From Gammaproteobacteria bacterium (GTDB lineage Bacteria; Pseudomonadota; Gammaproteobacteria; Pseudomonadales; Azotimanducaceae): a stretch of 57,558 nt of DNA. This document shows positions 7,865 through 13,326 of this stretch, piece by piece. The stretch spans positions 1 to 57,558 of the forward strand of contig JAPOVY010000001.1 in assembly GCA_026707905.1 (NCBI GenBank), given 5' to 3'. The notes beneath the pieces were generated by a model. That model was not told the origin of the DNA. It did not search any database and saw nothing but the letters and a program-made list of their open reading frames with translations. The first letter of the stretch is position 1. The number at the start of each line of letters is the position of its first letter. The position numbers and the translations under genes are program-made.

Positions 7865-8904
7865 ACCGCCCACGAATTGACGTATTTGGAATCGGCAACG
7901 CCTTGCTTGACGTTGAATACCGTGTAACTGACGCGTTTCTCGTCGAACACGGCATAGAAAAACGCCGCATGACGCTCGTCGATAAAGATCGAATGTTGCG
8001 ACTCATCAATGCCCTCGAAGAGGACGCCATATCCTCAAATTGCGGCGGTTCAGTAGCGAACACGATGTACGCCATGCGTGGTTTTGGTCGTCGTACGTAC
8101 CTTACCTGTCGAGTCGCGCCAGATGAAGCTGGTCGACATTTCGTCATGCAACTCGAAAGTGCCGGCATCGGGACCAACACGATTTTGCCTAGTGACGATG
8201 GCGTTACAGGACGCTGCCTCGTGCTTATCACACGAGACGCCGAACGGACGATGAATACCTGTCTTGGTGTGTCTGACCAGCTCCTATCGACCCAAGTGGA
8301 AACAGAAACCCTTCGCAATTCGAAGAGCATATTTATCGAAGGCTATCTTGCATCGTCTGATACCGGACATCTTGCGGCTAAGCGTGCTCGTGAAATCGCT
8401 GATGACTACAAACTTGAAACGAACTTGACCTTAGCGGACACGAGCATGGTGAAGATGTTTCGACCTCAACTTGAAACGATCATAGGGAATGGCTTGACCC
8501 GTGTATTCGCGAACATCGACGAGGCACTTGAGTGGTGTCGTACTGACCGACTCGACATCGCACTAACCCAGCTGCGCGAAATTGCACGTGAGGCAGTCAT
8601 TACGCTTGGTCCAGGTGGTTGCTCAATCAACACAGGGACGACTCGTATTCACGTGGACGCGTTCCCCGTAAAACCGATCGACTTGAATGGTGCAGGAGAT
8701 ATGTTCGCTGCGGCGTACCTCACCGCGATCCGTGATCATGACACAGAAAGCGCCGCACGCTTTGCCAATTTCGCTGCATCACGTGTTATTCAGTACACAG
8801 GCGCACGTCTTAGATCGACTTCCGCGTATGACGCGATTAGTCGACAGTACTTGACGATCCAAGAAAAGGCACTGACCGGTCAAGTACGAGTGTCTTCGGC
8901 GTAA
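7861..8904 (+). CDS. PfkB-family carbohydrate/adenosine kinase
   Basis: Cytoplasmic ribokinase-type kinase of 347 residues. I start it at the ATG overlapping the hemL stop, giving [19 protein letters not shown], a normal PfkB N-terminus. The [13 protein letters not shown] segment near residue 61 is the substrate-binding motif, and [14 protein letters not shown] near residue 275 is the anion-hole/catalytic-base motif with Asp in GAGD. The protein resembles the adenosine kinase/sugar kinase branch found in many proteobacteria, but the substrate is uncertain. Its 3' end overlaps the 3' end of sfsA by 68 bases in convergent orientation. Confidence 0.88.
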
Positions 8905-9541
8905 TCTCACACCGATAAGCAAGGACCTCTACTCCCGCAGCGACCGCATCGCGCACAGCAGCGTCATACACAGGATCGATATCGTCTGCGATCGCCACCT
9001 GATTGATTCCTGTATGTGCAACACAGAAGAGAAGAACCGCACGTTCGCCACGCTTTACACACCGGTGCAGTGCATTGACATGTTTCGTAGCGCGTGCACT
9101 TCTGGCATCCGGAAAGACTCCCACCTTCTCTCGTAAGTAGGTGACGTTCTTAACTTCAATGAAGACGTCTTCGTTACCGAAATCGAAGCGACCTGCTTCA
9201 TCAGGAATCTTCACTTCACTCTGGAACTCGCCGTTGCGAAGTCCGTCGATCGTATGAGTAGCTAACGCTTCTTTGACGATACGATTCGCCCGGTTCGTGT
9301 TAACGCAAATAAGATGGTCTTCGGGCGTCTGGACGATTTCAAGGCTACCTCGTAGTTTTCGGTTGGGATTGTCGCTAACTGAAAAGTAGACGGGAAAACC
9401 AGGAAATACACACGCCGACATAGCGCCGGTGTTTGCACAATGGATCGTGTCACGCGTGCCATCAGGCAAACGCACGTCGACAAGGAACCTCTTATAACGA
9501 CGCACCATGGTAGCCTGATGCAATGCAGGTTCAAATCTCAT
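8837..9541 (-). CDS. sfsA: SfsA family protein (sugar fermentation stimulation protein A)
   Basis: 234-residue SfsA family protein. Recognisable features are RYKRFLVDV near residue 14, HCANTGAM near residue 34, the VNTNRANRIVKEAL segment near 80 and IEVKNVTY near 127. The last has an acidic-Lys pattern like a PD-(D/E)XK nuclease core, in line with the fold proposed for the family. E. coli SfsA was described as DNA-binding and affecting maltose genes; its molecular role is poorly known. sfsA-dksA linkage is conserved in gammaproteobacteria, though here they are divergent. The 3' end overlaps the PfkB kinase gene. Confidence 0.93.
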   Translation of the reverse strand: MRFEPALHQATMVRRYKRFLVDVRLPDGTRDTIHCANTGAMSACVFPGFPVYFSVSDNPNRKLRGSLEIVQTPEDHLICVNTNRANRIVKEALATHTIDGLRNGEFQSEVKIPDEAGRFDFGNEDVFIEVKNVTYLREKVGVFPDARSARATKHVNALHRCVKRGERAVLLFCVAHTGINQVAIADDIDPVYDAAVRDAVAAGVEVLAYRCEITPKTLVLDRSVPFLGSSSTVD

Positions 9542-9695
9542 CGACCGGCGACAATAACTCGCGATGGTGAAACTTGCTTTTCAGTCCGTTCTGTGTGCAA
9601 AAACCACGCCCCGATTCACTTCGTAACAGATTTTGTGGCAATCTCAACGAGATGTTGCTATCGTTCCCACCTTTTATTTTGCGGGGAGCGACGAA

Positions 9696-11072
9696 ATGGC
9701 GACGAGGAAAGCTACGACTACGAAACGAAAGACGACTACAACGAAAACGACAAGAACGTCATCCGCTCGGAAAAAATCAACGCCATCGAAGTCACCTACC
9801 TCTAAATCTAAAGCTGCAACTACCACCCGTCGTACGTCATCACGCAAGTCCTCGCCAGCAAGTAAAAACAAAGCCACAACCGCAAAACGTACAAAAAGAG
9901 CAGCTTCATCGACTCGAAAGACGACCTCAAAGCCATCGCCCCGAAGAACAACGAAATCGACCTCCAATAAGTCTGCATCCAAATCTACAACCACTAAGTC
10001 CCAAGTCAGTTCGAAAGCCACTAAATCCACCGTTACGGCCACAAGACGGTCAACACGTACCGCCGCAAAAACAACAAAAACCCGAAAACCAACCAATCAA
10101 AAAAATACGACGGTAACTAAAACGCGGACGGCTAAAACCACGCGTGTAGCCACAAAGGCTAGTTCGACAACCAAACCTAAGCGTTCAACAAAAACGCCAA
10201 CGTCGAAATCCAAACCTCGTTCTCAGACGAAGACCCGGACCACTCGCGCTGCTGCGACTAAGACGAGCACACGGGCGAGCACGGCAACAGCCTCGAAATC
10301 CTCAACGAAAAAAACGGCTGCTGCGACTAAGAAAAGCACACGAGCGAACAAAGTTACAACCTCGAAATCCTCGGCAAAAAAAACGGCTGCTGCGACAAAG
10401 CGATCGACCGCGAAGCAGAATGCCAAGTCGACGACTCAGAGGAACACCGCTTCCAAGTCCCGGTCGTCAAACGCTGCGAAATCCAAGACGAGTCGTGCGC
10501 GAAAGGGCACTCCGAAATCTCCAAGAGTCAAGGAAACGACCTCAAGTCAAGCCGAAGTGGTCAGCATTGGGATCGTCGCCCGACGCCGAAGACGTCCCGC
10601 AAGCGGATCTGGAAGACGCTCAAGGAAAGCCGTAGAAGCTTCGATTAGTCGGATGTCCGGTAGCGATCGGCGTGGTCAACCGCTCGACACTCAAGCGGAC
10701 GATCAATACATGAATCCGGACCAACTTGACTACTTTCGACAGATTCTGGTTGATCAACTCAACAGTCTGGACGAGAACGCCGGAAATGCGCACGGGAAAC
10801 TCATTTCAGAACCGAAAAATCTCCCAGACGAACTTGACCAAGCGGCTGAAGAGGACAATCGACGAACCGAACTGCGGATTCGCGATCGGGAACGCAAATT
10901 GATCAATAAGATCAAGGAAACGTTGGAGAAAATCGATAACGGCGAATACGGTTACTGCAAGAGCTGCAGTTATCCGATCGGTAAAGCTCGATTAGAGGCA
11001 CGCCCGACAGCGGATCTCTGCATCAACTGTAAAGATCTCGAGGAACAAGAAGAACGTCAGTTCGGAGGCTGA
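9696..11072 (+). CDS. dksA: DksA with a long N-terminal histone-H1-like basic extension
   Basis: RNA polymerase secondary-channel factor that works with ppGpp. The ATG at 9696 follows GGGGAG and starts MATRKATTT; an upstream in-frame ATG at 9633 is less likely. Residues 1 to about 330 are almost only Lys, Thr, Ser, Ala and Arg, resembling AlgP or histone H1 tails and probably disordered and DNA-binding. The DksA core starts near residue 335. Its coiled-coil tip keeps the DxxDxA motif (D378, D381, A383), and the zinc finger is Cys421, Cys424, Cys442 and Cys445. E. coli DksA has 151 residues; this one has 458. A 69-bp tandem repeat lies inside the extension. The open frame through the whole extension and its steady composition argue that the fusion is genuine. 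The gene ends 12 bases before gluQ. Confidence 0.95.
   Translation: MATRKATTTKRKTTTTKTTRTSSARKKSTPSKSPTSKSKAATTTRRTSSRKSSPASKNKATTAKRTKRAASSTRKTTSKPSPRRTTKSTSNKSASKSTTTKSQVSSKATKSTVTATRRSTRTAAKTTKTRKPTNQKNTTVTKTRTAKTTRVATKASSTTKPKRSTKTPTSKSKPRSQTKTRTTRAAATKTSTRASTATASKSSTKKTAAATKKSTRANKVTTSKSSAKKTAAATKRSTAKQNAKSTTQRNTASKSRSSNAAKSKTSRARKGTPKSPRVKETTSSQAEVVSIGIVARRRRRPASGSGRRSRKAVEASISRMSGSDRRGQPLDTQADDQYMNPDQLDYFRQILVDQLNSLDENAGNAHGKLISEPKNLPDELDQAAEEDNRRTELRIRDRERKLINKIKETLEKIDNGEYGYCKSCSYPIGKARLEARPTADLCINCKDLEEQEERQFGG
10254..10415 (+). repeat. 69-bp tandem repeat within the dksA extension
   Basis: Copies start at 10254, 10323 and 10392, each opening GCGAC(T/A)AAG, at exactly 69-base spacing. 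The first two copies are full length and the third is partial. Each encodes a 23-residue unit beginning ATK(T/K/R)ST and ending with KKTAA. The copies differ at several bases, so this is an older, diverged expansion that preserves frame. Confidence 0.85.
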
Positions 11073-11084
11073 AAACTCCTAGCC

Positions 11085-11954
11085 GTGTACGTCGGCAGGT
11101 TCGCACCAACCACATCAGGTCCGCTTCACCTCGGCTCGTTGCTCGCAGCCGTCGCGAGTTACCTAGACGCTCGTTCACACGATGGTCAATGGCTTCTCCG
11201 TCTTGACGATATCGATGAACCAAGAACGAGCGCTAACGCAGAAAAGATCGCGCTGACGACGCTTGAAATTCACGGACTCGAATGGGACGGTGTGGTCGTT
11301 CGTCAATCCGATCATCGAGATCGCTACTGGGACGCGATCGCCGAGCTTCGAAAAAAGGAACTCATTTTTTACTGCACGTGTTCTCGCAGGAAACTGCGCA
11401 ATACAGCTACGTATCCGGGTTACTGTAGGACTCGGCTCGTGAAGCCAAGTGATCCCGCATCCATCCGCGTCCACGTGCCAGATCGCAAAATAGGTTTTGA
11501 GGACCGAATTCAAGGATCTGTAGAAGGCAATCTATCTGTTGGTGAGGGTGACTTTGTTGTGATGCGAAAGGAAGCTATCGTTGCCTACCCTCTAGCAGTT
11601 ATCGTCGATGACGATATCACTGGTGTGACCGATGTTGTAAGAGGTGCTGACCTTCTAGAAAACACACTAACGCAGATCTTCTTGATTGAAACACTCGATT
11701 TGGCGATCCCACGATATGCTCACATACCAGTTCTCAATCAAAGGAATGAAATCAAGCTATCGAAACGAGATCAAGCGTTCGCAATTGATAATCGCGTGCC
11801 GTTGTTGAACTTAGTGAGTGCGCTGCACATGCTTGGATTGGACCCATCTTCAGATCATCAAGATGTACATCTCCTTCTTATATGGGCAATCGAACAATGG
11901 GACGTTCGGAATGTGCCGAAAGAAGTCGCAATTAAGGACTTCATCAGCATCTAA
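11085..11954 (+). CDS. gluQ: Glutamyl-Q tRNA(Asp) synthetase
   Basis: Paralogue of the GluRS catalytic domain that attaches glutamate to queuosine in the anticodon of tRNA-Asp. It begins at a GTG (11085) giving MYVGRFAPTTSGPLHLGSL, with the HIGH-type motif as PLHLGS near residue 14. The KMSKS-type loop is KLSKRD near residue 226. A zinc-binding Cys pattern is visible (CTC near residue 101 with YCR near 115). The 289-residue length, lacking the anticodon-binding half of GluRS, identifies the family. dksA-gluQ is a conserved pair in gammaproteobacteria. Presence implies that this cell has queuosine-modified tRNA. Confidence 0.94.
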   Translation: MYVGRFAPTTSGPLHLGSLLAAVASYLDARSHDGQWLLRLDDIDEPRTSANAEKIALTTLEIHGLEWDGVVVRQSDHRDRYWDAIAELRKKELIFYCTCSRRKLRNTATYPGYCRTRLVKPSDPASIRVHVPDRKIGFEDRIQGSVEGNLSVGEGDFVVMRKEAIVAYPLAVIVDDDITGVTDVVRGADLLENTLTQIFLIETLDLAIPRYAHIPVLNQRNEIKLSKRDQAFAIDNRVPLLNLVSALHMLGLDPSSDHQDVHLLLIWAIEQWDVRNVPKEVAIKDFISI

Positions 11955-12072: not shown

Positions 12073-13326
12073 TTGACTCTATATAAGCCCAAGGTCGTCA
12101 CACTCGACGATTTTGATCGGAATGCCGTACCCTCACAGCTCATCGAAATACATCGTCGACTTCGTCGTGGCGGTCACGATGCATTTCTTGTGGGTGGTTG
12201 CATACGCGACTATCTGCTTGGCTTATCACCGAAGGACTTCGATACCGCGACGAACGCAAGACCCGAGAAGATCCGCAAGCTACTCCCACAAGCTTTCATC
12301 ATCGGACGTCGCTTTCGTCTGATCCATGCTCGGCGTGGGGATACGACCTTCGAAATCGCCACATATCGTAAGGAACCGCCTTCCATCAACTCGACTCATA
12401 GTAAGCGCAGAATTTCACTGGAGAACACCTTTGGCAATCAGCGAGAAGATGCCTTTCGACGTGATTTCACCATTAATGCGCTCTATCTAGATCTACGTCG
12501 TAAGGAAGTTGTCGACTACGTCGGAGGACTGAAGGACTTACAGGATCGGGTGATCAGATCAATTGGACCGGCCGATGAGAGATTCCAAGAAGACCCAGTG
12601 CGCATGATTCGAGCTGCGCGTTTTGCGGCGAAATTAGGCTTCTCACTGGATGCCGAAGTAAAGTCTGCAATACGCTCGAACAAACGTCTACTTGGTCTTG
12701 TGAGTCGACCACGCATGAGAGATGAGTTAACCAAGCTTTTTCTCAGCGGACATGGAGTCGCGAGTTATCAAGTAATGACCGATCTGAATCTACTTGAATG
12801 CGTATTCCCACAACACAAAGCCGCAAGTTCGATGATCAAGCATGCGATGATTGAATCCGACGAACGGTACGCGTCCGGCCATAAGCTGTCTAGCGCCTAT
12901 TTCTTCGGCGCGATGCTCTGGCATTTTTATGCAGACCGACTGCAAGTTTTAGATAACGAGCACGGTGCGAATTCGAATATTGGTGTGTTACGCGAACAAG
13001 CATGTTTTGATGTGCTTCAAATGAGTCGTCAGTACGTCTCCTTAAACCGTGAAGCGCAACAGTTCATCCTCAATATCTTCGCACTACAACGTCGTCTTGA
13101 GCGAAAACAGAATGTCGGCAGAACATTGGACCACCCGCGAATTCGTGCTGCAATACACCTTCTCGAACTAAGAGCAAAATCGGGTGAGATCGATCCATCA
13201 TTAGTTGAATGGTGGAAAAAACGGCAACCCGCTCGCAAGGTCGATCGAAGGCGTAAGCGAAGATCGAACCGAAACTATCGCCGATCACCTGGCGATAGAC
13301 ACCGACTAAAAGTTGAGAAAAACTAA
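12073..13326 (+). CDS. pcnB: Poly(A) polymerase I
   Basis: Nucleotidyltransferase that adds 3' poly(A) tails to RNA and so promotes decay. The reading frame opens at TTG (12073), with no obvious better ATG before the catalytic region; the start is therefore tentative. LVGGCIRDYLLG near residue 39 and KDFDTAT near 54 contain the GG and DxD catalytic motifs, and RRDFTINALYLD near 137 and EDPVRMIRAARFAAKLGF near 177 are the class II nucleotidyltransferase/neck motifs. The C-terminus ends in an Arg/Lys-rich tail typical of PcnB (RRRKRRSNRNYRRS). The length of 417 residues fits. In most relatives folK follows immediately; here the next gene is panB after 92 bases. Confidence 0.94.
   Translation: MTLYKPKVVTLDDFDRNAVPSQLIEIHRRLRRGGHDAFLVGGCIRDYLLGLSPKDFDTATNARPEKIRKLLPQAFIIGRRFRLIHARRGDTTFEIATYRKEPPSINSTHSKRRISLENTFGNQREDAFRRDFTINALYLDLRRKEVVDYVGGLKDLQDRVIRSIGPADERFQEDPVRMIRAARFAAKLGFSLDAEVKSAIRSNKRLLGLVSRPRMRDELTKLFLSGHGVASYQVMTDLNLLECVFPQHKAASSMIKHAMIESDERYASGHKLSSAYFFGAMLWHFYADRLQVLDNEHGANSNIGVLREQACFDVLQMSRQYVSLNREAQQFILNIFALQRRLERKQNVGRTLDHPRIRAAIHLLELRAKSGEIDPSLVEWWKKRQPARKVDRRRKRRSNRNYRRSPGDRHRLKVEKN

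Follow-up and report, generated by a model that had tools for sequence, protein, structure and literature searches.

Organization of the dksA locus

The window, i.e. the whole stretch of 57,558 nucleotides analyzed (contig JAPOVY010000001.1, assembly GCA_026707905.1, from a gammaproteobacterium of the family Azotimanducaceae), carries a dksA gene next to a divergent sfsA gene and upstream of gluQRS and pcnB (Table 1). DksA was originally predicted to be fused here to a long basic tail, and the layout of the gene bears this out. Positions 9696-11072 (+) form one uninterrupted reading frame of 458 codons, encoding 458 aa, free of stops and of any frameshift that could set tail and core apart. 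The core starts at YMN and is preceded by 337 residues, made up by the tail and a linker of 52 residues.

The start ATG is kept in all five near relatives of the same genus (L003-L007), which also feature a Shine-Dalgarno sequence at the same place (GGGGAG in L003-L006, AGGGAG in L007). The sfsA gene adjoins dksA in 17/17 same-genus relatives checked, hence one orthologous dksA locus is recognized across the genus. Named relatives are MAGs of Pseudomonadales or Gammaproteobacteria. No promoter was found by a scan which is uninformative here, and a plasmid search with the locus returned weak matches, the five listed out of 66 all falling on the hemL part.

Table 1. Features of the dksA locus and of its immediate neighbors
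Feature	Position	Strand	Evidence
sfsA, divergent neighbor	8837..9541	-	TIGR00230 above cut-off
Ribosome-binding sequence GGGGAG	9683..9688	+	7 nt before ATG 9696; sequence and conservation in L003-L007
Basic tail (residues 1-285; net charge +83), predicted as coil	9696..10550	+	composition, AF2, pN<pS, K/R spacing
Tandem repeat within the tail (2.2 copies of a 69-bp in-frame unit)	10248..10400	+	TRF; alignment gap of 20 residues here in five near relatives
Conserved linker, residues 286-337 (AEVVSIGIVARRRRRP...), modeled as helical in part	10551..10706	+	alignment; AF2
DksA core, residues 338-458	10707..11069	+	PF21157, PF01258, TIGR02420, 1tjl (E 6.7e-33)
Coiled-coil tip D378-E-L-D381-Q-A383 (DxxDxA)	10827..10844	+	alignment to 1tjl, residue check
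Zinc-finger stretch with C421, C424, C442, C445	10956..11030	+	domain profile, residue check
gluQRS, downstream neighbor	11085..11954	+	TIGR03838 above cut-off
pcnB	12073..13326	+	TIGR01942 above cut-off

The DksA core

The core scores above cut-off with profiles PF21157 (73.4 vs. 27), PF01258 (32.1 vs. 24.9) and TIGR02420, the DksA equivalog (128.6 vs. 115.5), and falls below the cut-off of NF008045, also named DksA (125.7 vs. 289). E. coli DksA (151 residues, PDB 1tjl) aligns to it over residues 29-151 without gaps, and residues in the window protein are thus numbered as in E. coli plus 307. The intact DxxDxA tip and four-cysteine zinc finger claimed earlier were confirmed residue by residue. 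Residues R91, L95, K98, R129 and K139 of E. coli DksA, named as ppGpp (site 2) contacts in PMC7676912, are all kept as R398, L402, K405, R436 and K446. The net charge of the core is -7. The genome, 93% complete, has one match to PF01258, which is the window dksA, and RelA/SpoT-family proteins, two or three per genome, were found in 11/11 genomes of the genus searched. As the functional residues are all present, and RelA/SpoT-family proteins are found in the genus, the core should act, judging from its sequence, as a ppGpp-responsive DksA. Unlike the window protein, E. coli DksA has no basic tail.

Composition and structure of the tail

Threonines (77), lysines (54), serines (52), alanines (38) and arginines (30) account for most of the 285 tail residues, which include 11 prolines and a single acidic residue. 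The Lys/Thr/Ser/Ala-rich region of over twice the core length described at first is therefore present as such, while its likening to histone H1 holds in part. SPKK-type repeated motifs are a mark of histone-H1-like tail proteins. Composition fits, and a long basic, net-positive stretch like those of H1-like or AlgP-type proteins is found (285 aa, +83, disorder being predicted only); KPAA motifs are missing from residues 1-285, and a single [ST]P[KR][KR] motif is present. AlgP of Pseudomonas aeruginosa (PMC9239181) and Hc2 of Chlamydia (PMC2848022) are H1-like proteins reported to bind DNA. Both are basic and repeat-bearing, as the window tail, but are not joined to an RNA-polymerase factor; in AlgP, moreover, the KPAA repeats are C-terminal (PMC9239181), whereas the tail of the window protein is N-terminal.

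AF2 was run on six sequences (mean pLDDT 47.7). The model features helices for the coiled coil, a low-confidence helix in the linker (residues 306-320), and coil throughout the tail, with ten-residue pLDDT means of 34-49. The tail is thus probably unfolded, as far as low-confidence coil in a model built on six sequences may tell. The linker is Arg-rich and conserved among relatives. Repeats, also part of the original prediction, are present but modest, being limited to the 69-bp unit. The tail of L003 has 9-aa repeats of its own, and together with the in-frame unit, which corresponds to a gap in relatives, they indicate that tails can grow through in-frame repeats. Used as query against its own genome, the tail retrieved only itself at E<=0.001 (150 of 188 candidates scored, composition-biased matches being liable to be missed).

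In the comparison with the nearest relative, L004, tail differences are distributed over the three codon positions as 57/47/105, and synonymous changes outnumber replacements on a per-site basis (pN 0.18, pS 0.48; in the core, pN 0.007, pS 0.37). Because of this constraint, and of the start, signal and frame kept in five relatives, we conclude from the sequences that the tail is translated, and made as part of one 458-aa protein.

Selection on charge and on its spacing

K-to-R and K-to-E changes are both single A/G transitions, expected to make up about equal shares of replacements (7.1% and 6.4%, respectively). Between the window and L004 tails, single-step K/R swaps are four and K/E swaps none; adding the L005-L006 comparison, the figures are 6 and 0, or 19 and 0 when all differences are considered, all small counts. 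Residues Asp or Glu are involved in none of the 46 single-nucleotide replacements separating the window and L004 tails (9.2% expected, P 0.012), hydrophobic residues in 4 (29.5% expected, P 0.0006). In the two comparisons together, Asp/Glu occur in 1/85 single-step changes and in 1/239 total differences. In four neighboring genes, used as control, 21-24% of the replacements involve Asp/Glu, and single-step K/R:K/E ratios are 5:2, 5:3 and 2:3 in three comparisons.

Positive charges are also evenly spaced. The variance of K/R residues per 20 aa is 0.54-1.07 in the tails of the six-genome clade to which the window belongs, vs. 3.7-4.0 in shuffled tails (3.6-7.2 times lower in 6/6 tails), and none of 2000 shuffles was as low in any of them; the six tails are relatives, and not independent replicates. 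Spacings of 4-5 residues are in excess, and no stretch free of K/R exceeds 7 residues. The shortage of acidic and hydrophobic replacements, the retention of K/R and the even spacing indicate, at the sequence level, that tail charge is selected in this clade while the letters turn over.

The pattern is not shared by all tails of the genus. The L033-L036 pair agrees partially (14 K/R and 2 K/E swaps, 6% of changes involving Asp/Glu), the constraint is missing from L040-L042 (0 K/R and 3 K/E, Asp/Glu in 22%), and Asp/Glu are involved in 17% and 8% of the changes in L037-L035 and L035-L042, respectively. L035 and L038 are too close for their comparison to be informative. L033 and L043 lack even spacing, which L036 shows weakly (P 0.07). 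Among seven tails tested from the class, those of L097 (P 0.0045) and L095 (P 0.03), and weakly that of L105 (P 0.07), are more even than shuffles, those of L090, L096 and L060 are not, and that of L066 is less even than shuffles. Since L040-L042, L033, L043 and several class tails disagree, selection on charge appears to be a trait of the window clade and perhaps of a few others, and not of all DksA tails.

Distribution of tailed DksA proteins

A comparison of lengths across related genomes had been suggested along with the prediction, which placed part of the novelty in tail length. Long tails turned out to be common in the genus, and basic ones to recur through the family, the order and the class. 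In the genus, DksA is encoded by open frames of 334-661 aa in all 18 genomes searched, and the tails measure 209-514 aa, with net charges from +35 to +123; the tail figures rest on a crude rule, tail starts being set at the Met/Val or start codon giving most net charge, and single lengths are rough. By the same rule the window tail measures 334 aa, and is the fifth longest of 18. The open frames of L033, L036 and L043, of 518, 616 and 661 aa, respectively, have basic tails that enclose some 25-30 residues of non-basic sequence, which resembles AIDRASKALEMLKGYVLASEEEA in L036 and has diverged in L043.

In other genera of the family, open frames of at least 250 codons were found in 53 of the 129 matching genomes, and 19 of the 20 long-frame genomes fetched carry a tail by the same rule, that of L133 being doubtful. 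The 53 genomes are an upper bound, as listed frame lengths exceed the re-derived stop-to-stop frames in G190 (946 vs. 228), and likewise in G112, G176 and G108. In the class sample, 175/184 genomes matched, including the window's own, and 146 others were tabulated from the better matches listed. Those with frames of at least 230 codons, 59 in number, were fetched, and all but L094 were parsed. Basic tails of at least 75 aa and a net charge of at least +20 were found in 41 of the 58, i.e. in about 40 of the 146 tabulated genomes; at least one of these tails, that of L069, seems spurious on inspection, its upstream frame being rich in Arg, Pro and Gly. Cores were located by a zinc-finger anchor in both family and class counts. 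Class tails have a median length of 154 aa (n=41) and a maximum of 349, and by this yardstick the window tail is long. Tails of other gammaproteobacterial DksAs (e.g. L097, L095, L066, L121) are N-terminal, K/R-rich and of low complexity as in the window, but most are Lys/Ala-rich, whereas those of the window clade are rich in Thr and Ser, their Lys and Arg being evenly spaced. On a tree of 70 cores, poorly resolved and sampled in favor of long frames, tail presence needs 13 changes, at least 2 of which are forced by well-supported branches; resolution is too poor to count tail origins.

Tail length is weak news for a further reason. The DksA of Xanthomonas euvesicatoria is longer than annotated, as proven by peptides and start-codon mutagenesis, and a processed form is reported as well (PMC5559785). 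A table in that paper gives 256 and 147, which we read as new and old lengths, i.e. an extension of about 110 aa. The two proteins are alike in having an N-terminal extension, supported by experiment in X. euvesicatoria. TraR/DksA homologs "even longer than DksA" are mentioned in PMC9239242. Among the top matches listed in a search of the full-text literature, which leaves subscription journals mostly outside, no report of a basic DksA tail as such was found. What seems new is the evidence that even charge is selected for in the window clade, and how widespread basic tails are.

Possible role of the tail

The explanation we favor, with a probability of about 0.55, is that of an ordinary ppGpp-responsive DksA provided with a tether which binds polyanions, probably DNA or RNA. 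It is proposed because even positive charge retained without sequence conservation is what a tether needs. The 458-aa protein would act as a normal secondary-channel, ppGpp site-2 factor, its N-terminal tail having been selected as a long, evenly charged cation. The tail would bind polyanions non-specifically, the most probable ones being DNA of the nucleoid or nascent RNA in the vicinity of RNA polymerase. DksA would in this way be concentrated locally around polymerase that is transcribing or bound to promoters, the chemistry of the core remaining unaltered. The DNA-binding tether first imagined agrees with the complete core and the charge-selected tail, but binding to RNA or polyphosphate would fit the same sequences.

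A bolder version is possible, though doubtful. DksA may be a fused nucleoid-associated factor, the uniform-charge tail coating or condensing DNA or RNA and distributing a ppGpp-dependent factor along the nucleoid; one protein would then serve both stringent control and chromosome packing. If true, and with basic tails having evolved repeatedly, stringent control would operate widely among Gammaproteobacteria in a mode so far unrecognized. Textbook knowledge of DksA, a regulator through which RNA polymerase responds to starvation, comes mostly from the E. coli protein. If about a quarter of the sampled gammaproteobacterial genomes carry a DksA with a long basic tail, and charge is selected in some lineages, the usual account of how DksA reaches RNA polymerase and acts upon it leaves something out in many bacteria.

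The tail may instead be a low-complexity expansion under loose constraint, harmless to the core and charged as a result of codon bias and repeat slippage, but this is unlikely. The wide range of lengths within one genus, the tandem units of the window and L003 tails, the repeated gain or loss on the core tree and the lack of charge constraint in L040-L042 all speak for such an expansion; but neither drift nor slippage would give the pN<pS, the few acidic or hydrophobic replacements and the even spacing seen in the window clade, and tails are present in all 18 genomes of the genus searched.

Somewhat less likely still is that the tail binds polyphosphate, or polyphosphate granules, coupling DksA to the polyphosphate of starved cells. 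AlgP, with its H1-like tail, associates with polyphosphate granules (PMC9239181), K-rich stretches bind polyphosphate (PMC12077175), and a polyphosphate kinase family match was found in 11/11 genomes of the genus searched; but the same match occurs in 7/14 control genomes, hence the presence of the kinase says little. Proteins modified by polyphosphate on lysines (KPM) are described as having dense lysines, about 9 of 20 residues, and runs of at least three, the positive cases EngA and SrmB both featuring 9 Lys per 20 aa (PMC12077175). The window tail has at most 6 Lys per 20 aa and no KKK; tails of its clade peak at 6-7, lack KKK as well, and use Arg freely. Because of these sparse lysines polyphosphate is a less likely partner for the window tail, DNA or nascent RNA near RNA polymerase being favored. 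The polyphosphate reading fits better the 26 of the 41 class tails which reach 9 Lys per 20 aa.

Removal of the tail after translation, which would leave a core-sized DksA as the main working form and make the tail a regulatory or targeting pre-region, is improbable. The processed form of the X. euvesicatoria protein would be a precedent, and the conserved Arg-rich linker could serve as a processing site; but disordered basic tails may get clipped in extraction, and a processed band may be an artefact. The chance that translation begins at an internal start near residue 335, giving the core alone and leaving the upstream frame untranslated, is practically negligible: M339 is a conserved residue, shared with E. 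coli DksA, and GAGG precedes the equivalent Met in L003, alone of six, but none of the three internal starts of the window gene (GTG at residue 288, ATG at 320 and 339) is preceded by a Shine-Dalgarno-like motif in a simple scan, M320 is found in the window only (F, L or I in five relatives), the Met in SRMSG is not conserved among relatives, and the conserved upstream ATG and signal, with the codon-level constraint on the tail, speak against a non-coding upstream frame, the GAGG of L003 being the one exception.

Variation among DksA cores

The window core is diverged, sharing about 40-53% identity with the best DksA matches in genomes beyond the clade of six. The branch that carries the cores of this clade is very long (5.2 changes per column, with a support of 98) relative to other DksAs of the genus (L008-L051), yet these cores retain the functional residues checked; the placement of long-branch rows in the tree is unsure. 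Two deeply different DksA cores occupy the sfsA-dksA locus within one genus. In DksA-like proteins of L045, L049, L116, L117 and L047 the zinc-finger cysteines are replaced (e.g. YCEETGEEIG), and some of these proteins keep basic tails.
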